Origin: Scleromatobacter humisilvae
GTDB lineage: Bacteria > Pseudomonadota > Gammaproteobacteria > Burkholderiales > Burkholderiaceae_C
Direction of reading: 5' to 3'
Length of the DNA stretch: 64,000 bases
NCBI RefSeq assembly: GCF_023231945.1
Contig: NZ_JAJLJH010000001.1
Span: forward strand, 1,054,001 to 1,118,000
Under the pieces are notes generated by a model. The model saw only the letters and a program-made list of their open reading frames with translations. It did no database searches and was not told where the DNA came from. Numbering within the stretch: the first letter of the stretch is position 1; each line of letters begins with the position of its first letter. This document shows, piece after piece, positions 3,412-32,411 of the stretch. A program made the translations under genes and the position numbers.

Positions 3412-4912
3412 CGTCGAACGACACGAGGAACTCGGCGCCGGTCGTGCCGTTGCGCGCGACAAGCGACCAGCCGTGCGCCAGCGCGATCTCGTGGCAGATG
3501 GCCAGGCCCAGGCCGGCGCCGGTGTCGCGCCGCGCGGCGCCGCGCCAGAAGCGCTTGAACAGCTCGGGCAGGTGCTCGGGCGGGATGCCGTCGCCCTCGT
3601 CGCGCACCGACAGGCCGTTCGCGCGCACGTCCACCGTCACGACGGCGCCGCTGGGCGAGTGCTGGAGCGCGTTCTCGATCAGGTTCTTCAGCAGCACGAA
3701 CACGGCCCCGCGATCGGCGCGGCGCGCCGGCAGCGCGTCGGCCAGGCGCAGGTCGAGGTGCACGTTGCCGCGCTGCGCGAGCCGCTGCAGGAAGGCGACG
3801 GCCTCGCCGGCCACGCCGCCCAGGTCGGTCTCGGCCATCTGGAAGTTGCGCGCCTCGCTGACTTCGGCCAGGTGCAGCAGCTGCGCGACCTGGCGCGCCA
3901 TGCGGTCGATGTCGCCCAGCAGCAGCTCGCGGTCGGCCGACTCGCTCAGTTCGACCTGGCCGCGGATCAGCGCCAGCGGCGTCTTCAGCTCGTGCGCCGC
4001 GGACGCGAGGAACTCCTGCTGCACGCGATACCCCTGCTGCAGCCGATCCAGCGCCTCGTTGAACGCGCGGATCAACGGCCGCAGCTCGCGCGGCATCGCG
4101 GCCTCGGACAGCCGCGTCTCGAGGTTGCGCGGCGCGATGCGCGATGCGGCCTCCGACGCGCGCCGCAGCGGCAGCAGGAAGTGGCGCAGCGAGCCGTGGA
4201 TGCCGAAGGCGAACAGCAGCAGCGACACCGCGGCGATCAGCAACGCGTTCTGCAGGATCGGGCCGACGATGGCGCCGCTGAACAGCGCGGCCGCGCGATC
4301 GCTGATCGCGGCCTGCACGACGTAGCGATGGCCCGCGTGCGTCAGCGCCTTCGAGACCACGTGCAGCGGCAGGCCGTCGACGACGACGTCGAAGCGCTCG
4401 CGCGCCGCGTCCGCCGGCGTCGGCGCGAACGGCGGTGCGCCAGTGTCCGACGACAGCACCGCGACGCCGCGGCCGTCGACCACGCGGTACTTCCAGTCGC
4501 GCGTCGCGGCGGTGTAGACCCAGGCCGTGTCGGGCGGCTCGCGCAGCGCCACCGGCGTGCCCGCGGCGTCGAAGGCGAGGTGCGATTCGATCCAGTCGAC
4601 CTGCTCGCTCAGGGCGTGCGACAGGGCCATCGAGCGATGCCAGTTGAACGCGGTCTCGAGCACGAGCGCGGCCAGCAGGATGCTCAGCAGCGACGCCACG
4701 ATGAACATCGCGAGCAGGTTGCCGCCGAGGCTGCGCCCCTGGTGATGGCGGCGGTAGTGCATCAGCTCCCACGCCGCGCGCCGGCGCCAGCGCAGCTCGC
4801 GGCGCGACGCGCCCTTGTCGCTGCCGCGCCGAGGCTCGCTGGCGCCGGCGTCCCAGCGGCACCAGTCGCTGTCGCGCCAGGGCCGGCGCGCGGAGCGGTG
4901 GTCAGGACGCAT
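3404..4912 (-). CDS. Two-component sensor histidine kinase
   Basis: An inner-membrane sensor kinase of about 502 residues. An Arg-rich cytoplasmic leader precedes the first transmembrane helix (about 66-87). A periplasmic sensor region follows to about 215, then a second helix (about 220-240), a HAMP-like linker, the HisKA domain with phospho-acceptor His307 (in AAHELKTPLALIRG) and an HATPase_c domain with N, G1 (DEGDGIPP) and G2 (GAGLGLAI) boxes. It is the last gene of an operon with the siderophore-interacting protein and the OmpR-type regulator. ATG at 4912 overlaps the regulator's stop by 11 bases, suggesting translational coupling; starts at 4927 or 4762 are also possible. The ligand is unknown; the operon context suggests an iron or redox signal (inference). 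Confidence 0.85.
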   Translation of the reverse strand: MRPDHRSARRPWRDSDWCRWDAGASEPRRGSDKGASRRELRWRRRAAWELMHYRRHHQGRSLGGNLLAMFIVASLLSILLAALVLETAFNWHRSMALSHALSEQVDWIESHLAFDAAGTPVALREPPDTAWVYTAATRDWKYRVVDGRGVAVLSSDTGAPPFAPTPADAARERFDVVVDGLPLHVVSKALTHAGHRYVVQAAISDRAAALFSGAIVGPILQNALLIAAVSLLLFAFGIHGSLRHFLLPLRRASEAASRIAPRNLETRLSEAAMPRELRPLIRAFNEALDRLQQGYRVQQEFLASAAHELKTPLALIRGQVELSESADRELLLGDIDRMARQVAQLLHLAEVSEARNFQMAETDLGGVAGEAVAFLQRLAQRGNVHLDLRLADALPARRADRGAVFVLLKNLIENALQHSPSGAVVTVDVRANGLSVRDEGDGIPPEHLPELFKRFWRGAARRDTGAGLGLAICHEIALAHGWSLVARNGTTGAEFLVSFDAS

Positions 4913-5582
4913 CGGGACGCAGCGCATAGCCGTGGCCGCGCACGTTGACCAGTTGCAGCGTCGAGTCGATCGCCTGCAGCTTCTTGCGCAGCCGGTGCAG
5001 CGCGACGTCGAGCGCGTTGGGCGTGACGGCCTCGGTCAGCCCCCAGGCCGCCGCCTCCAGCGACGCGCGCCGCACGACCATGCCCTCGGCCTTGACCAGG
5101 CACAGCATGATCTGCAGCTCCGCGGACGGCAGCGTCACCGTCTCGGCGCCGCAGCTCATCCTGCCCTGGTCGGGCGCGAGCTGGATGTCGCCGAACGCCG
5201 GATTGAGGCTCTGCATCGCGGCCGGCCGGCGCAGCAGCGCGCGCACGCGGGCCGCGAGCTCCTCCATCGAGAACGGCTTGGCGAGGTAGTCGTCGGCGCC
5301 GGCCTCGAGGCCCTCGACGCGGTCGTGCACGGCGTCGCGCGCGGTCAGCATCAGGCAAGGCGTGTCGTTGCCGTCGGCGCGCAGCCTGCGCACCAGCGAC
5401 AGGCCATCGCCATCGGGCAACCCGCGGTCGACGACGATCGCGCCGTACGGCGTCTCGGCGATCGCGTGGCCGGCGCTGGCGATGCGGTCGAACACGTCGA
5501 CCTCGATGCCGGCCGCGGCCAGCGCCTTGCGCACCAGCGTGGACAGGCGTTCGTGGTCTTCGACGAGGGCGATGCGGTTCAT
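4902..5582 (-). CDS. OmpR/QseB-type response regulator
   Basis: A 226-residue DNA-binding response regulator. The receiver domain (1-115) has the acidic pair Glu8-Asp9, phospho-acceptor Asp52 in VVDRGLPDGDG, Thr80 and Lys102 (AKPF). A winged-helix DNA-binding domain fills the C-terminal half, ending in the family motif VNVRGHGYAL. All phosphorylation residues are intact. It starts two bases after the stop of the upstream ferric-reductase-like gene and overlaps the downstream kinase gene, so the three are almost certainly one transcript. It lacks a strong ribosome-binding site of its own, which fits coupled translation. It probably regulates its own operon and genes elsewhere. Confidence 0.9.
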   Translation of the reverse strand: MNRIALVEDHERLSTLVRKALAAAGIEVDVFDRIASAGHAIAETPYGAIVVDRGLPDGDGLSLVRRLRADGNDTPCLMLTARDAVHDRVEGLEAGADDYLAKPFSMEELAARVRALLRRPAAMQSLNPAFGDIQLAPDQGRMSCGAETVTLPSAELQIMLCLVKAEGMVVRRASLEAAAWGLTEAVTPNALDVALHRLRKKLQAIDSTLQLVNVRGHGYALRPDAS

Positions 5583-5584
5583 GG

Positions 5585-6361
5585 TTAGTCGAGAGCGATT
5601 TTTCCTGGCGCCCAGTACGCCTTCGCGAGCAGTTGCGACGGCTTCGCGCCGGCGGCCTTCAGCGAGCGCTGCAGGCGCTGGATGGTCAGCGACTGGCCGC
5701 TGAGCACGTATTGGCGGAACGAGTCGGCGGCGGCGTAGCGCGCCAGCGCCGCCTCGACCTCCGCCAGGTGCGTGGCGTCGGCCCGTCGTTCGACCAGCCA
5801 CGCATGTTGCAGCATGCCACGGCCCATCGCGTCGAGGACGGCGCGCACCTCGACGGCGTCGCCGACCTCGAAGATGAAATGCGTGTCGAGCCCGCCCAGC
5901 GGCGTGCCGCACAGCGCGAGCGCCAGGCCCAGCGAGGTCTCGTCGCCGACGAACACCGTGGAACGGTCGATCGCCGCCAGGTCCATCGAGCGCCGCGGGC
6001 CCAGCACGTGGCAACGGTCGCCGGGGGCCACGGCGTCCAGCCAGCGGGCCGCCGGCGCGTTGCCGTGCGCGTAGCAAAGCAGCTCGAGCGAGTCGTCGCC
6101 CTCGCCCAGGCGGAACGGCGTGAAGGTGCGGAACGCCATGCCCTGCACGCGCACCTGCACCTTGTCGCCGGGCCGGTGGGCGACGCGGCGCAGGGCGTCG
6201 CTGCGCAGCGAGACGAGCCGGAAGCGCGGCGACAGCGCGTGCACCGCGTCCACCCGCGTCTCGAGCGTCAGCAGCCTCAGCACGGCCTGGCCGACCCGGC
6301 CAGGGTCGGTGCGCGGGCCGGCGTCGCGCAGGGCGGCGGGGGTCGATGCGGTGGAATCCAT
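5585..6361 (-). CDS. Siderophore-interacting protein, FAD-dependent ferric-chelate reductase
   Basis: A 258-residue cytoplasmic flavoprotein of the SIP (ViuB/YqjH) family, which uses NAD(P)H and FAD to reduce ferric-siderophore complexes and free the iron. The FAD-binding motif RTFTPF is at 78-83 (family consensus RxYSxR-like), followed by the GDRCHVLGPRRSM phosphate-binding loop (about 114-126) and the NAD(P)H-side strand VFVGDETSLGLA (136-147). The start at 6361 is chosen because GGAG lies about 6 bases upstream; longer frames reach back to 6448 without a good site. It is the first gene of an operon with a response regulator and sensor kinase. No Fur box of obvious quality is visible upstream. 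Confidence 0.85.
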   Translation of the reverse strand: MDSTASTPAALRDAGPRTDPGRVGQAVLRLLTLETRVDAVHALSPRFRLVSLRSDALRRVAHRPGDKVQVRVQGMAFRTFTPFRLGEGDDSLELLCYAHGNAPAARWLDAVAPGDRCHVLGPRRSMDLAAIDRSTVFVGDETSLGLALALCGTPLGGLDTHFIFEVGDAVEVRAVLDAMGRGMLQHAWLVERRADATHLAEVEAALARYAAADSFRQYVLSGQSLTIQRLQRSLKAAGAKPSQLLAKAYWAPGKIALD

Positions 6362-27443: not shown

Positions 27444-29942
27444 CTAGCGTTTCGGCAGCTTGCGGATCAGCTCGATCAGAGCCTCGACATCCACCGGCTT
27501 GACGAAATGGTGGTCGAAGCCGGCCTCGCGAGACTTGCGCCGGTCCTCGCTCTGGCCCCAGCCGCTCAGCGCGATCAGCCAGGGTCGATCGCCCTCGGGC
27601 AACGCGCGGATCGCGCGCGCCGCCTCGAGGCCGTTCATGCGCGGCATGCCGATGTCCAGCAGCGCGACGGCCGGCCGCCAGTTCGTCGCCATCTCCACGG
27701 CCTCGACGCCGTCATGCCCGACGGCCACCGGATAGCCCAGGATCTGCATGACCTGCGACAGGCTCTCGGCCGAGTCGACGTTGTCGTCGACCACCAGCAC
27801 CCGCAGGCCGTCGGTGTCCTGCGCGATCAGCTCGTGGCCGGCGTCCAGCCGGGGTGCGCGCGCGGGCACGCGGATCAGCGGCAGCCGCACGACGAAGCGG
27901 CAGCCGCGGTCGGGGCCGTCGCTGGTGGCGTGCACCGCGCCGCCGTGCATCTCGACCAGCCGCTTGACCAGCGCCAGGCCGATGCCCAGGCCGCCCTGCG
28001 CGCGCTCGCGCGAGCGGTCGGCCTGCGTGAACAAGTCGAACACGCGCGGCAGCATGTCGGCCGACAGGCCGATGCCCGAGTCCTGCACGGAGATCACCGC
28101 GTCGTCGCCGTCGCGCTCGGCCAGCACCTGGATGTGGCCGCCCTCGGGCGTGTACTTGGCCGCGTTGTTCAGCAGGTTGGCCACGATCTGGCTCAGCCGC
28201 GTCGTGTCGGCGTCCACCATCAGCGCGCGCGGCGGCGCGAGCCGCGTCGTGAGATGGTGGCGGCCGGCGTCGATCAGCGGGCGGCTGGTCTCGATCGCGG
28301 CGCTGACGGCGTCGGCCACGTCGACCTGCTCGCGGCGCAGTTCGACCTTGCCCTGGCTGATGCGGCTGACGTCGAGCAGGTCGTCGACCAGGTGCACCAT
28401 CTGCCGCAACTGGCGCTCGATGATCTTGCGCGCCTTGCCGTGCATCGTCTCGTCGCGCGAGAGCTGCATGATCTGGACCGCGTTGCGGATCGGCGCGAGC
28501 GGGTTGCGCAGCTCGTGCGCGAGCGTGGCGAGGAATTCGTCCTTGCGCAGGTCGGCGTCGTGCAGCGTGGCCTCGGTGTGCTTGCGCAGCGTGATGTCCG
28601 CGATGATGCCCAGGAAGCGCAGGCGCGGGCTCTCGCGTTCGCTGGCCCGTGCCGAGACGTAGGGGCTGCCGTGCACGTCGATCCAGTGCTCGCTCGCGTC
28701 GGGCCAGACGACGCGGGCCTCGAACGCGAGGTCGGTGCGCGTCGCGAACGCGCGCGTGACGAGGGCGCGCACGCGCTCGCGGTCGTCCGCGTGCAGGTGC
28801 GCGTAGAGCGTCTCGAGGTTCCAGCCCGGCACCGGCGCGGCGTAGCCGAAGCAGCGGTCGTACAGGTCGGAGTGGCGCGACTCGCCGCTGTCCACGTCGA
28901 TCTCCCACTCGCCCACGTGCGCCGCGGCCAGCGTGAACTCGAGCCGCGCCTTGCTCTCGCGCAGCGCCGCGTCGATCATTTCCTGCTCGGTGATGTTGGA
29001 GGCGATGGACAGCACCGACTCCACCTCGCCGTCGTCGGCGAATTCGGGGATCAGCCGCGACGAGAACATCCACGCCTGCCCGCCCACGCCGCTGAAGCGG
29101 AACTTGATCGCGCCGACGGCGCCGGTCTCGAACACGCGGCGCACCGCGCGCTCCCACTCGGACTGCACGTCGGGCATCATGCCCATCTCGGCCGCGCTGC
29201 GACCGAGGTACGCGGCCGCCGGCACGCCGGTGTAGCGCTCGACGACCGGGCTCACGTACAGATGGCGCAGGTCGCGGTCGAAGCGCGAGAAGATGTCGGG
29301 CGAGTTCTCCACCAGCGTCGCGAACTGGCGTTCCCGCTGGGCCAGCGCCGCGGCGGCCAGCGCCAGCGTGGCCTGCGACTGCGCGCGCTCGTCGATGTTG
29401 CGGATCACGGACATCGTGCCCAGCGGCTCGCGCGCGCCGTCCTCCAGCAGCGAGACGGTGCACTCCACGTGCATCTCGTGGCCGTCGCGCCGCACGTGCA
29501 CCGACTCCGCCCGGTAGCTGCCGGTGCTGCGCAGGCTCTCGCGCGCGTGCATGGCGCGCTCCGCGTCCGGCCAGCGCTCGCGGAACAGTTCGCCGCGCTC
29601 GCGCCCGAGCATCTCGGTGGCGCTGCAGCCGTACTGCGACTCGGCGGCGGGGTTCATGTAGATGACGTGGTCGTCGACGTCGAACGCCAGCACCGCGTCC
29701 TGCATCTGCGCCAGCACGTCCTTGCGCATCGCGTTGGTGGCGGCCTGGGCGCTGTCGAGCGTGTAGATGTCCTCGCCGACGATCAGCGCGTCGACGTCGC
29801 CGTTGCGGATCGCCGCCAGCGTGTCCTCGGCCTCGCCCAGGCGCGTCTCGAGCTCGACGTTGGCGCGCCGCAGCCGCGCCAGCTCGTCGTCCGCCGCGTC
29901 GCCCCCGGTGGCGGTGTCGCGTTCGAATTGGTCCTTGCTCAT
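27444..29942 (-). CDS. Hybrid sensor histidine kinase with three PAS domains
   Basis: An 832-residue soluble hybrid kinase. A coiled coil at 20-45 precedes three PAS domains (about 72-185, 203-325 and 330-455). HisKA follows with phospho-acceptor His476 (LAHELRNPLAPIRNA), then HATPase_c with NLLNNAAKYTPEGG (N box), QDSGIGL and GGLGIGLAL. The C-terminal receiver domain (about 713-830) has Asp719-Asp720, phospho-acceptor Asp763 (LLDIGMPRMNG) and Lys815. All catalytic residues are present. It lies 25 bases downstream of the second kaiB in the kaiC-kaiB-kaiB operon, so it is the likely output or partner of the Kai proteins, in the role that SasA plays in cyanobacteria (inference). No transmembrane helix; no DNA-binding domain, so a separate regulator is needed. 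Confidence 0.88.
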   Translation of the reverse strand: MSKDQFERDTATGGDAADDELARLRRANVELETRLGEAEDTLAAIRNGDVDALIVGEDIYTLDSAQAATNAMRKDVLAQMQDAVLAFDVDDHVIYMNPAAESQYGCSATEMLGRERGELFRERWPDAERAMHARESLRSTGSYRAESVHVRRDGHEMHVECTVSLLEDGAREPLGTMSVIRNIDERAQSQATLALAAAALAQRERQFATLVENSPDIFSRFDRDLRHLYVSPVVERYTGVPAAAYLGRSAAEMGMMPDVQSEWERAVRRVFETGAVGAIKFRFSGVGGQAWMFSSRLIPEFADDGEVESVLSIASNITEQEMIDAALRESKARLEFTLAAAHVGEWEIDVDSGESRHSDLYDRCFGYAAPVPGWNLETLYAHLHADDRERVRALVTRAFATRTDLAFEARVVWPDASEHWIDVHGSPYVSARASERESPRLRFLGIIADITLRKHTEATLHDADLRKDEFLATLAHELRNPLAPIRNAVQIMQLSRDETMHGKARKIIERQLRQMVHLVDDLLDVSRISQGKVELRREQVDVADAVSAAIETSRPLIDAGRHHLTTRLAPPRALMVDADTTRLSQIVANLLNNAAKYTPEGGHIQVLAERDGDDAVISVQDSGIGLSADMLPRVFDLFTQADRSRERAQGGLGIGLALVKRLVEMHGGAVHATSDGPDRGCRFVVRLPLIRVPARAPRLDAGHELIAQDTDGLRVLVVDDNVDSAESLSQVMQILGYPVAVGHDGVEAVEMATNWRPAVALLDIGMPRMNGLEAARAIRALPEGDRPWLIALSGWGQSEDRRKSREAGFDHHFVKPVDVEALIELIRKLPKR

Positions 29943-29967
29943 GACCACGTCTCTGCAGGCCGCGTGC

Positions 29968-30261
29968 CTACCGTCCGACCGGGACGTCGAGTCCCTTGAG
30001 GACGCGTGCCACGTCCGACATGTCGCCGATGATTCGGCGCGCCGGCGGCGGCGCCAGGCGCAGCAGCGTGGGCGCGCAGATGATCTGGTCCTCGGCGGCC
30101 TGCGCCACGTGCTCGGCGATGTCGAGGATCTCCAGCGAGTAGCTGCCCGGCAGGTGCTCCTCGAGGATGCGGCGCGTGTTGACGATCGCGCGCGCGGACT
30201 TCGGCGTGGCGTCGGTCACGTAGAGCCTCAGCACATACGGCTTGAATTCGCTGACGCCCAT
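29968..30261 (-). CDS. kaiB: KaiB-family protein, second copy
   Basis: A 97-residue thioredoxin-like KaiB. The core PYVLRLYVTDATPKSARAI at residues 8-26 matches cyanobacterial KaiB, and RRIIGDMSDVARVLKGLD is the conserved C-terminal part in which the fold-switching Gly and Asp lie. The middle loop is divergent: the NPxLAEEDKILATPTL section of canonical KaiB is HVAQAAEDQIICAPTL here. It starts six bases after the stop of the first kaiB and ends 25 bases before the kinase start. KaiB binds phosphorylated KaiC hexamers and competes with the output kinase. The copy is clearly distinct from its neighbour, implying different binding behaviour. Confidence 0.88.
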   Translation of the reverse strand: MGVSEFKPYVLRLYVTDATPKSARAIVNTRRILEEHLPGSYSLEILDIAEHVAQAAEDQIICAPTLLRLAPPPARRIIGDMSDVARVLKGLDVPVGR

Positions 30262-30267
30262 GCCGGC

Positions 30268-30642
30268 CTACCGCCGCGGCTGGACGTCGAGACCGACCAG
30301 CACGCGCTCCTCGTTGGACAGGTCGCCGATGATCTTGCGGATCGGCTCGGGGAACTTGCGCACCAGCGTGGGCACCGCCAGGATCTGGTCGCCCGCGGCC
30401 AGGCGCGGGTTGAGCAGCAGGTCGACCACCTCGATCGAGTAGCGCCCGGCCAGGTGCGTCTCGCACACCCGCTTCAGGTTCTCGAACGCGGCGATGGATT
30501 TCGCCGTCTGGCCGGCGACGTAGAGGCGCAGCTGCCACTCGGCGACCTCGGGCTGCTCCTCGTGCAGCGCCTTCTCGACCAGCTCCGCGAGGCTGGCGCT
30601 CGCGCTGGCCTTGGGCTTGGCGGAGGACTTGTGCGCGTTCAT
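30268..30642 (-). CDS. kaiB: KaiB-family protein, first copy
   Basis: A 124-residue KaiB with a 37-residue Ala/Ser/Lys-rich extension before the domain. The domain ([20 protein letters not shown], then [20 protein letters not shown], then [18 protein letters not shown]) is nearer to cyanobacterial KaiB than the second copy. It overlaps the kaiC stop as ATGA (30639-30642), and its ribosome-binding site AAAGGAGG lies inside the last codons of kaiC, giving one of the best sites in the window; high translation relative to kaiC is therefore expected, consistent with the KaiB excess needed in the known oscillator. Confidence 0.9.
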
Positions 30643-32411
30643 TTCTCCTCCTTTCGCGCCGTCGGGCGCACCAGTGGCGGACGCGGCCGTGGCGGTGGCA
30701 CGTCGCGCGACTGCGCGATCGCGCGGGCCCGCGAGGACGCGCCCTCGGCGTGCAGGCGCTCGCGCTCGATGGCGAACTCCACCTCCCCGGCGCGCTCGTC
30801 GGCCTGCGCATTCAGCGCCGCGATCTGCGCGTCGATCGCCTTGCGATGGGCGGCGAGTTCCTTCACGCGCCGTTCGTGGTCGCGCCGGCGCAGGTCGCTC
30901 GCAGCCTCCTCCTGCGCCACCTGCGAGACGCGCGCCGTGCCCGTGAGCACGCGGTCGCCGGACAGGTAGACGTCGACGAGATCGACGCCCTTGTTGCCCA
31001 TCACGAACTCGCGCACCTGGTGCGAATGCGCCATGCCGCGCGACTTCAGGACCTGCAGCGTGCGCGTGCGCTCGCCGTTGCCGGCCAGGTTGGACAGCAG
31101 GATCCAGGTGTCCATCAGCGACGACACGCCCACCTGCGAATCGGCCACGTCCACGCCCGCGTCGCTGGTCAGGCTGGTGAAGAGCGCCGTGACGCCCTGC
31201 TGCTTCAGGTAGTCGATCAAGCGCATCAGCGTCGGCTTGAGCGAGCGGTCGTCGCGATCCATCGACAGGTTGCTGATCGGATCGACCACCACCACGGACG
31301 GCTTGAAGTCGCGCACCAGGTTGTACATGTGCACCAGGTGCTGCTCGAGGCCGTGCAGCGTCGGGCGCGAGGCGTCGATGCGAAGCCGGCCCTGGCGCTC
31401 CCACTGGGCGAGATCCAGGCCGATCGAGGCCATGTTGCGCATCAGCTGGCTTGACGATTCCTCGTACGCGAACAGCAGCGCGCGCTCGCCGCGCCGGCAC
31501 GCCGCGTCGGCGAAGCTGGCGCCCACGCTGCTCTTGCCGGTGCCCGGCGCGCCCGAGACGAGCGTGCTGCTGCCGCGGTACACGCCGGCGGCGCCCAGCA
31601 TGTCGTCAAGCCCGTCGATGCCGGTGGACACGCGATCGGACGAGGCCTGGTGCTCCAGCCGCAGCGAGGTGATCGGCAGCACCGAGATGCCGTCGGGGGC
31701 GATCAGGAAGGGATACTCGTTGGTGCCGTGCGCCGTGCCGCGGTACTTGACGACGCGCAGGCGCCGCGTCGACACCTGGTCGACGATGCGGTGATCGAGC
31801 AGGATCACGCAGTCGGCCACGTACTCCTCGAGGCCGAAGCGCGTCAGCGACGTCTCGCCGCGCTCGCCGGTGATGATGGCGGTGACGCCGCGATCCTTCA
31901 GCCAGCGGAACAGCCGGCGCAGCTCGGCGCGCAGCACGGCGTGGTTGGGCAGGCCGGAGAACAGCGCCTCGATGGTGTCGAGCACGACGCGTTTCGCGCC
32001 GATGCTGTCGATGGCGTGGCCGAGGCGGATGAACAGGCCCTCGAGGTCGTACTCGCCGGTCTCCTGGATCTCGTTGCGCTCGATGTGGACGTGGTCGATC
32101 GCGATCTTCTTCTGGCGCTGCAGCTTGTCGAGGTCGACGCCCAGCGAGCGCAGGTTCTGCGTCAGCTCCTCGGCGTTCTCCTCGAACATCATGAACACGC
32201 CGGGCTCGTCGTATTGCAGCGCGCCGTGCACGAGGAATTCCGCGGCGAGCATCGTCTTGCCCGAGCCCGCGGAGCCGCACAGCAGCGTGGGACGGCCGCG
32301 CGGCAGGCCGCCGCCGGTGATCTCGTCCAGCCCCTGGATGCCCGTGGGCGCCTTGGGCAGGCTGGTCGCTTCGGGGTCGCTCGTCTTCGCGGTTTTCTTG
32401 GGGCGCGCCAT
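30639..32411 (-). CDS. kaiC: Circadian clock/stress ATPase KaiC homologue
   Basis: A 590-residue double RecA-domain KaiC. CI (about 20-250): Walker A GSAGSGKT (46-53), catalytic Glu77-Glu78. CII (about 258-495): Walker A GAPGTGKS (287-294), Glu317-Glu318. The autophosphorylation pair of the cyanobacterial protein (Ser431-Thr432) aligns with Ser430-Ser431 here, in [12 protein letters not shown]. After the CII core comes a long charged coiled coil (about 498-560) and a Pro/Arg tail, replacing the A-loop and KaiA-binding tail. KaiC hydrolyses ATP, forms hexamers and cycles its phosphorylation with KaiB. ATG at 32411 has GAAGGA upstream. First gene of the operon kaiC-kaiB-kaiB-hybrid kinase; kaiA is absent, as expected outside cyanobacteria. 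Confidence 0.95.

Follow-up and report, generated by a model that had tools for sequence, protein, structure and literature searches.

A KaiA-less kai operon of Scleromatobacter humisilvae with two KaiB genes and a hybrid histidine kinase that opens with a kai-linked N-terminal module

Related systems and the locus

The described systems closest to the kai operon considered here, which occupies positions 27,444 to 32,411 of a 64,000-nucleotide stretch of Scleromatobacter humisilvae DNA (GCF_023231945.1, contig NZ_JAJLJH010000001.1, positions 1,054,001 to 1,118,000; the whole stretch is called the window below), come from Rhodobacter (Cereibacter) sphaeroides and Rhodopseudomonas palustris. Outside cyanobacteria, almost all kaiBC clusters were stated in 2011 to adjoin a histidine kinase or GGDEF/EAL gene (PMC3164672), and the arrangement of kaiC, kaiB and a PAS kinase in R. 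palustris was reported in 2016 (PMC4794148). The clade of tailed KaiC proteins and its mechanism were published in 2023: R. sphaeroides KaiC is a KaiA-free autokinase that responds to ATP/ADP and is bound by KaiB, and its coiled-coil tail links two hexamers and accelerates dephosphorylation (PMC10076222). KaiB fold switching in R. sphaeroides is intrinsically slow, taking hours, and is slowed by three prolines (PMC11551320).

The operon in the window was read as probably encoding a KaiA-independent KaiBC timer of R. sphaeroides type, either an hourglass or an energy-state switch, whose output would run through a dedicated kinase and its short N-terminal module, a reading to which we assign a probability of roughly 0.6. 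It was built on what was observed here of gene content, KaiC type, the split between two KaiB forms, the near-exclusive link between the module and kai loci, and the exchange of output domains behind the module. The features on which it depends are as follows.

30639..32411, minus strand: kaiC, 590 amino acids, double ATPase of R. sphaeroides type (PF06745 E 4e-113 in two stretches; NCBIfam NF006799 716 bits, cut-off 408)
31119..31124, minus strand: KaiC phosphosite Ser430-Ser431, aligned with S413/S414 of R. sphaeroides KaiC
30642..30914, minus strand: KaiC C-terminal extension (about residues 500-590), partly aligned with the coiled-coil tail of R. sphaeroides KaiC
30268..30642, minus strand: kaiB1, 124 amino acids, derived KaiB1 clade, 34-residue N-terminal tail (Pfam KaiB E 1e-24)
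29968..30261, minus strand: kaiB2, 97 amino acids, cyanobacterial side of the KaiB tree, fast evolving (Pfam KaiB E 9e-20)
27444..29942, minus strand: hybrid histidine kinase, 832 amino acids from the ATG at 29942, with module, three PAS domains, HisKA, HATPase_c and receiver
29706..29879, minus strand: N-terminal kai-linked module of the kinase (helix, AIRNGDVDALIV, hairpin), profile A2

Operon and KaiC

Names of all four genes were backed by Pfam and NCBIfam. The original prediction had placed four same-strand genes here, with junctions of ATGA, 6 and 25 bases, and the coordinates confirmed this: kaiC and kaiB1 share an ATGA overlap, kaiB1 and kaiB2 are 6 bases apart, and 25 bases separate kaiB2 from the kinase ATG (an in-frame GTG at 29948 is an alternative start that would give 834 amino acids), so that kaiC, the kaiB pair and the gene of the PAS-rich hybrid kinase do form one tight operon. 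Comparisons drew on 80 named loci, whose KaiC proteins are the 80 most similar to the window KaiC among 569; many of these loci are from metagenome bins whose phylum labels may err. The named nearest relatives of this KaiC make the betaproteobacterial host assumed in the original prediction plausible. The gene order, whose conservation in other genomes the original prediction had proposed to check, was found again in many phyla; orthologues thus do retain it, and the arrangement is not a matter of chance. The claim that the system is KaiA-less also held, as PF07688 gave 0 matches in the organism's own genome (6.27 Mb in 28 contigs) with the S. elongatus control detected, the divergent KaiA3 type (named in PMC10931921) lying outside that search.

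Judged by its sequence, the window KaiC is of the R. sphaeroides type, with a long C-terminal tail and a Ser-Ser site. In a phmmer search of the PDB its closest solved relative was R. sphaeroides KaiC (8dba, 612.7 bits, residues 17-569 of 590), followed by 8zn5 at 415.6 bits; 1u9i, which we take to be S. elongatus KaiC, scored 350.6 bits. Identity with the KaiC of R. sphaeroides KD131 was 55% across 84% of the query, and TIGR02655 remained below its cut-off. Both ATPase sites were intact, as predicted, each with its Walker A lysine and its Glu-Glu pair. Across 104 aligned KaiC proteins the Walker A lysines were invariant, the Glu-Glu pair was kept in 104/104 (CI) and 100/104 (CII), and the phosphosite was Ser at the first position in 103/104 and at the second in 98/104. 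The window tail is long, at 118 residues from NKGVDL to the end.

Several related loci differ in their KaiC. Four relatives with a short KaiC C-terminus (L037, L043, L096 and L097) retain kaiB genes and module. Elsewhere in the organism's own genome (L094, C2:330500-342000) a second KaiC-family gene at 3448-5819, with 95.8 bits against the window KaiC, stands directly behind a histidine kinase gene; neither KaiB nor module was found in that stretch, and this gene therefore belongs to a different KaiC group. Four loci of the same bacterial family (L109-L112) hold another KaiBC type with one kaiB, no module and a Ser-Thr or Ser-Ala phosphosite, its KaiC scoring 345-395 bits against that of the window.

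The kai-linked N-terminal module

Proteins encoded downstream of the kaiB genes start alike, with LxxENxELRxRLxEAEETLxAIRxGEVDALVV, a turn and QVYTL, followed by a PAS domain. A profile of this start (A2, 58 positions) was built from 62 of 72 extracted segments. The predicted fold of the window kinase (numbered from the ATG; predicted local distance difference test (pLDDT) 88.9, lower at 61-80) has a helix at 14-46, a hairpin at 52-55/58-61 and a further helix that runs on into the PAS domain. No Pfam family reached its cut-off on the window's 58-residue segment, of the ten NCBIfam matches on kinase residues 1-198 none began before residue 41 and only one before residue 61, their starts coinciding with the PAS domain, and the best 50 matches of a PDB search with the kinase N-terminus were headed by PAS or LOV proteins. 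PHROGs held no family that matched the module or the KaiB proteins.

Two of 81 loci lie on contigs that end before the relevant place; in the remaining 79, hence in 79/79 testable ones, the module was located 8-248 base pairs (bp) behind the last kaiB. Genomes were then scored by group, with at most 32 (window's family), 16 (Pseudomonadota) and 36 (Bacteroidota) first-look candidates per genome. Among 200 genomes of the window's family the module was present in 5, which are the 5 of 11 KaiB-bearing genomes with a kaiB pair; the 6 genomes with an unpaired KaiB were all without it. Among 398 Pseudomonadota it was present in 11 (E < 1e-8), of which 10 had it within 110 bp behind a kaiB match, while the 11th (G305) has it next to a remnant, a single 84-codon frame containing fragments of both kaiC and kaiB. 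Among 178 Bacteroidota it was present in 13 (E < 1e-13), always within 300 bp behind a kaiB match (13/13). Where all first-look candidates were scored, in 39 genomes and the KD131 plasmid, 42 module copies were counted, 41 at kai loci (two complete operons being present in one genome) and one an orphan. The figure of 41 was derived from the finding of a single copy per genome, taken together with the copy already known at each one's kai locus, and only the extra copies were opened.

The association does not extend to every KaiB-bearing genome. The module was absent from 5/18 such genomes in Bacteroidota and 28/38 in Pseudomonadota, and on Aquisphaera and Hymenobacter plasmids a PAS or kinase protein without the module stands beside the KaiB genes; the module is thus the mark of a single branch among the KaiBC systems. 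In two Methylococcaceae loci (L050 11300-11473, L057 11357-11530) a second module protein follows directly behind the first. One decayed kai locus (L108 2616-2944) has kaiC and kaiB pieces in one 84-codon frame directly before a module protein whose module is cut to positions 1-29 and whose long open frame is still there.

The module was kept while the output part varied between HisKA, HWE, HisKA_2, HisKA_3, GGDEF-EAL, HD and PAS only, and it was less diverged than the adjacent PAS domain, with a mean corrected distance of 0.87 against 2.65 in the 56 loci that had all parts in the alignments. Neither the module nor the split between the two KaiB forms was found described in the open-licence literature, although other papers may contain a description; as far as these searches reach, the module shared by the proteins encoded behind kaiB appears to be new.

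The two KaiB proteins

The original prediction had called the pairing of two KaiB proteins with one kinase unusual, which was not borne out. Behind kaiC, two kaiB genes were counted in 71 of the 80 named loci, three in one, one in seven and none in one (L009 and L034 being cut); as the contigs of L009 and L034 end before the relevant place, 78 uncut loci remain, and 72 of these 78, which have the nearest KaiC proteins, hold at least two kaiB genes. In the phylum draws, which are less selected than the named loci and include the centre genomes G000 and G616, two KaiB genes were present in 4/10 module-bearing kai loci of Pseudomonadota and 8/13 of Bacteroidota, together 12/23. This frequency and the KaiB tree rule out that the pair is an oddity of this genome.

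In a tree of 154 KaiB proteins the first- and second-position KaiB proteins of 72 pairs (window included) were separated by a 100/100 branch in 72/72 cases (this and the second KaiB tree have 87 columns only, and bootstraps were not settled). By record labels the split spans Pseudomonadota, Bacteroidota, Verrucomicrobiota, Planctomycetota, Acidobacteriota, Chloroflexota, Nitrospirota, Myxococcota, Thermodesulfobacteriota and Methanoperedens archaea, and so the order and identity of KaiB1 and KaiB2 have been preserved across these phyla. When outsiders were added, KaiB1 remained one clade (100/99) that takes in R. sphaeroides KaiB, and KaiB2 was the paraphyletic rest including cyanobacterial KaiB, from which KaiB1 emerges as the derived form. 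A KaiB2 clade was considered and dropped, because it fails once cyanobacterial and module-less KaiB proteins are added (5 changes) and only KaiB1 is a clade.

The closest solved relatives followed the same division, 8fwj_M (R. sphaeroides KaiB) for the kaiB1 product and 1r5p for the kaiB2 product; window KaiB1 and KD131 KaiB, of the same clade, share 60% identity over residues 33-120. Among module loci with a single kaiB, R. sphaeroides, Falsirhodobacter, Rhizobium BG4 and G528 have KaiB1, G442 and L032 have KaiB2, and the single KaiB of L049, L060, L087, G234, G266 and G274 branches at the base of KaiB1. Of the three prolines behind the slow fold switching of R. sphaeroides KaiB (matched to columns in this analysis), every one was kept in at least 71/72 KaiB1 and at least 71/72 KaiB2 proteins. 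The structure predicted for window KaiB2 has the fold-switched topology that binds KaiC (pLDDT 90.6, with 5jwr_B as closest match), which counts as weak evidence because AlphaFold2 required a special procedure to model the ground state of R. sphaeroides KaiB (PMC11551320).

KaiB2 evolves about twice as fast as KaiB1 (mean distance 0.69 against 0.34, 56 loci). The motif F-[ED]-x-x-[LIVMA] was found in the N-terminal tail, 11-12 residues ahead of the fold, in 27/72 KaiB2 and 0/72 KaiB1 proteins, with a mean of 1.9 in shuffled KaiB2 tails; window KaiB2 is without it. The N-terminus of window KaiB1 (30541-30642) is a 34-residue tail that exceeds that of most relatives. One genome labelled Chthoniobacteraceae (G619, also that of L076) has two complete kaiC-kaiB1-kaiB2-module operons (L122 and L123), each with a module protein of its own.

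The kinase, its relatives and the surroundings

Behind the module, the window kinase comprises the following domains.

29394..29726, minus strand: PAS 1 (PF00989, residues 75-185)
28980..29312, minus strand: PAS 2 (PF08448, residues 213-323)
28659..28853, minus strand: PAS 3 (PF08447, residues 366-430)
28350..28544, minus strand: HisKA phospho-acceptor domain (PF00512, residues 469-533)
27876..28208, minus strand: HATPase_c (PF02518, residues 581-691)
27465..27800, minus strand: receiver domain (PF00072, residues 717-828)

Domains were counted in 77 downstream proteins, without those of L009 and L034, where the contig ends, and of L075 and L083, whose genes are truncated: HATPase_c was present in 51, HisKA in 46, a receiver in 37, HWE in 11, HisKA_2 in 4, HisKA_3 in 3, GGDEF/EAL in 2 and HD in 2. 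Five of these 77 frames (L011, L024, L028, L050 and L058) were wrong or started late; the module search covered all six frames. At ten loci labelled Bacteroidota or Balneolota the protein is only 232-241 amino acids long, and the one scanned singly (L041) consists of PAS without a catalytic domain. A KaiB domain was absent from the kinase and from the families shown (25 of 26) for the 77 downstream proteins. That the kinase is SasA was ruled out, since it had no KaiB domain match and the module profile compared with the KaiB2 profile at a probability of 1.6%.

Neighbouring genes do not look part of the operon's conserved unit, to judge by a tblastn comparison of the five flanking proteins with the fetched loci, which gave one match (the TPR-sulfotransferase protein in L025, 28% identity). 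No promoter-like site was found, nor any terminator-like site on the operon's strand, and no RNA family reached its cut-off.

Proposed mechanism and alternatives

By analogy with R. sphaeroides, KaiC would autophosphorylate Ser430/Ser431 without KaiA and lose phosphate as ATP/ADP drops, and KaiB1 would bind the phosphorylated KaiC ring. KaiB2 may be a second KaiC-competent KaiB that competes with KaiB1 or follows it. The kinase could sense the state of the KaiC-KaiB assembly by docking through its N-terminal helix-hairpin module, and would then relay the signal through its PAS, HisKA and receiver domains to a target, placing it on the output side. The original prediction, a self-contained timing or stress switch read by the kinase, therefore stands in part: a timing or energy switch with the kinase as partner is the likeliest reading, and for the claim that the kinase reads KaiC or KaiB, still inferential, the module offers a candidate segment.

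Several observations weigh against a timer with module-borne output. The KaiC tail is short (10-56 residues) in the four relatives with a short C-terminus named above, so tail control is not obligatory. Four weak profile matches lie away from kaiB (Pseudomonadota E 5e-4 and 6.5e-4, Bacteroidota E 3e-4 and 7e-4), and the orphan module protein (L121, 6560-6718) had no KaiB or KaiC in the 9.5 kb examined around it. Over 56 loci, and with the other parts controlled for, partial distance correlations of the module were r 0.15 with KaiB1 (p 0.03), r 0.16 with KaiB2 (p 0.03) and r 0.12 with KaiC (p 0.05), the correlation between KaiB1 and KaiB2 was r 0.04 (p 0.33), and PAS 1, not the module, tracked KaiC best (r 0.55); distances single out no partner for the module. 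Some module loci have only KaiB1 and others only KaiB2, so neither KaiB alone is required, and the module's constant partner may be KaiC on its own or a KaiB-KaiC complex of any kind. Covariation of the module specifically with KaiB2 was considered and not supported, the partial correlations being equal for KaiB1 and KaiB2, and a pairing of short-linker modules with fast KaiB2 proteins, which came from one clade and is one event at best, is not claimed. The genome of the orphan is an Acidobacteria bin that has a kai operon too.

The strongest competitor, which we place somewhat short of even odds, is that KaiBC acts as a stress or energy-charge switch, or as a kinase scaffold, rather than as a timer, delays being irrelevant. 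Its hosts include Bacteroidota, Geobacteraceae and Methanoperedens, which are not known to be phototrophs, and work by Loza-Correa in 2014 reportedly ties Legionella kai to stress. The ATP/ADP response of R. sphaeroides KaiC also fits such a switch (PMC10076222), but R. palustris growth is described as needing kaiC in 24-h cycles and not under constant conditions (PMC4794148), and KaiB fold switching in R. sphaeroides is slow on a scale of hours (PMC11551320), with its prolines kept here.

That the kinase is the input, its PAS domains sensing redox, oxygen or a ligand and its module carrying the signal to KaiC/KaiB, with KaiBC output elsewhere, is unlikely. It would suit the three PAS domains and the ten short proteins (232-241 amino acids) of Bacteroidota and Balneolota, the scanned one (L041) being PAS only, and the R. 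sphaeroides kinase has been proposed to bring a redox signal to KaiBC (PMC5520375, PMC10931921), which also counts against an output role. The effectors of most module proteins (HATPase_c in 51/77, receivers in 37, GGDEF/EAL in 2, HD in 2) fit output better.

About as doubtful is the view that the module does no more than cap the first PAS domain at its N-terminus with a dimerising helix, has come down with the gene and binds no Kai protein. Helical N-caps are common in PAS proteins, the model has a predicted long helix and hairpin ahead of the PAS domain, and gene and operon may simply co-descend, PAS following KaiC more closely than the module does. Such a cap sits poorly, however, with a module far more conserved than the adjacent PAS domain and kept before different effectors, and with its occurrence once per genome or record in 38/40 of those searched with all candidates scored, PAS kinases being common elsewhere in such genomes. 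Least probable by a wide step is that KaiB2 is a relic, or simply adds to the dose of KaiB1, as its about twofold faster evolution and its absence from some loci including R. sphaeroides might suggest, against which stand the fixed order and the 100/100 split in 72/72 pairs across many phyla (87 columns, bootstrap not settled), the kept fold-switch prolines and a tail motif of its own in 27/72 against 0/72 KaiB1 proteins.

A wider reading of the timer with module-borne output is offered tentatively, as something we would sooner expect to fail than to hold. The module may be a dedicated Kai-docking domain that defines a so far undescribed clock-output family with exchangeable effectors (kinase classes, cyclic di-GMP enzymes and PAS adaptors) in bacteria and archaea, and the old KaiB1/KaiB2 pair may be two fold-switching partners with different tasks, KaiB1 acting at the KaiC ring and KaiB2 where the signal passes to the module protein. 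If this is true, the R. sphaeroides timer would be a reduced form without KaiB2 that has been studied without its reader. The module turns signal transfer by non-cyanobacterial KaiBC timers into a binding experiment, for which KD131 has solved structures and kinetics, and the two-KaiB layout asks why many lineages keep two KaiB proteins of the fold-switching kind where R. sphaeroides has one.

Comparison with described systems

The KaiBC timer of R. sphaeroides KD131 (8dba, 8fwi and 8fwj; PMC10076222) is the nearest match: it is KaiA-free according to that paper and has a long-tailed Ser-Ser KaiC and a KaiB of the KaiB1 clade; the window likewise has a KaiC with intact ATPase motifs, Ser-Ser and a long tail, no KaiA (PF07688) and a KaiB1-clade KaiB beside kaiC. 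On the KD131 plasmid pRSKD131A, kaiC and kaiB are followed by a kinase that opens with the module ELRRRLHEAEETLKAIRQGDVDALVV (59 bits, profile positions 5-47 of 58). KD131 differs from the window in having one kaiB, in being plasmid-borne and in its HWE kinase with no receiver at E 1e-6, where the window has a HisKA hybrid kinase. Given the module on the KD131 kinase, the solved timer is a one-KaiB form of the same system. Among plasmid matches, of which 7 regions were opened, module proteins were also present on kai plasmids of Falsirhodobacter, Rhizobium BG4, Sinorhizobium B11 and Pararhizobium, the last with both KaiB proteins.

In the R. palustris cluster (PMC4794148) a single predicted promoter serves kaiC, kaiB and the gene of a PAS histidine kinase; it resembles the window in this gene content, in its Ser-Ser site, in its longer KaiC C-terminus and in having no KaiA, and is unlike the window in that one kaiB is described. 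Cyanobacterial KaiABC-SasA shares with the window KaiC and KaiB homologues and a histidine kinase partner; the window is without KaiA, its kinase lacks the KaiB domain of a SasA, its phosphosite is Ser-Ser instead of Ser-Thr, and its KaiC falls below the TIGR02655 cut-off. In Ramlibacter-type KaiC-Nt_HK pairs, finally, a kinase whose N-terminal part is conserved likewise stands behind a KaiC gene, but these pairs are described as having no kaiB; they carry SY, TY or SF phosphosites and have an N-terminal part said to resemble KaiB/SasA (PMC3164672), whereas the window has two kaiB genes in its operon and a helix-hairpin module at the head of its kinase.

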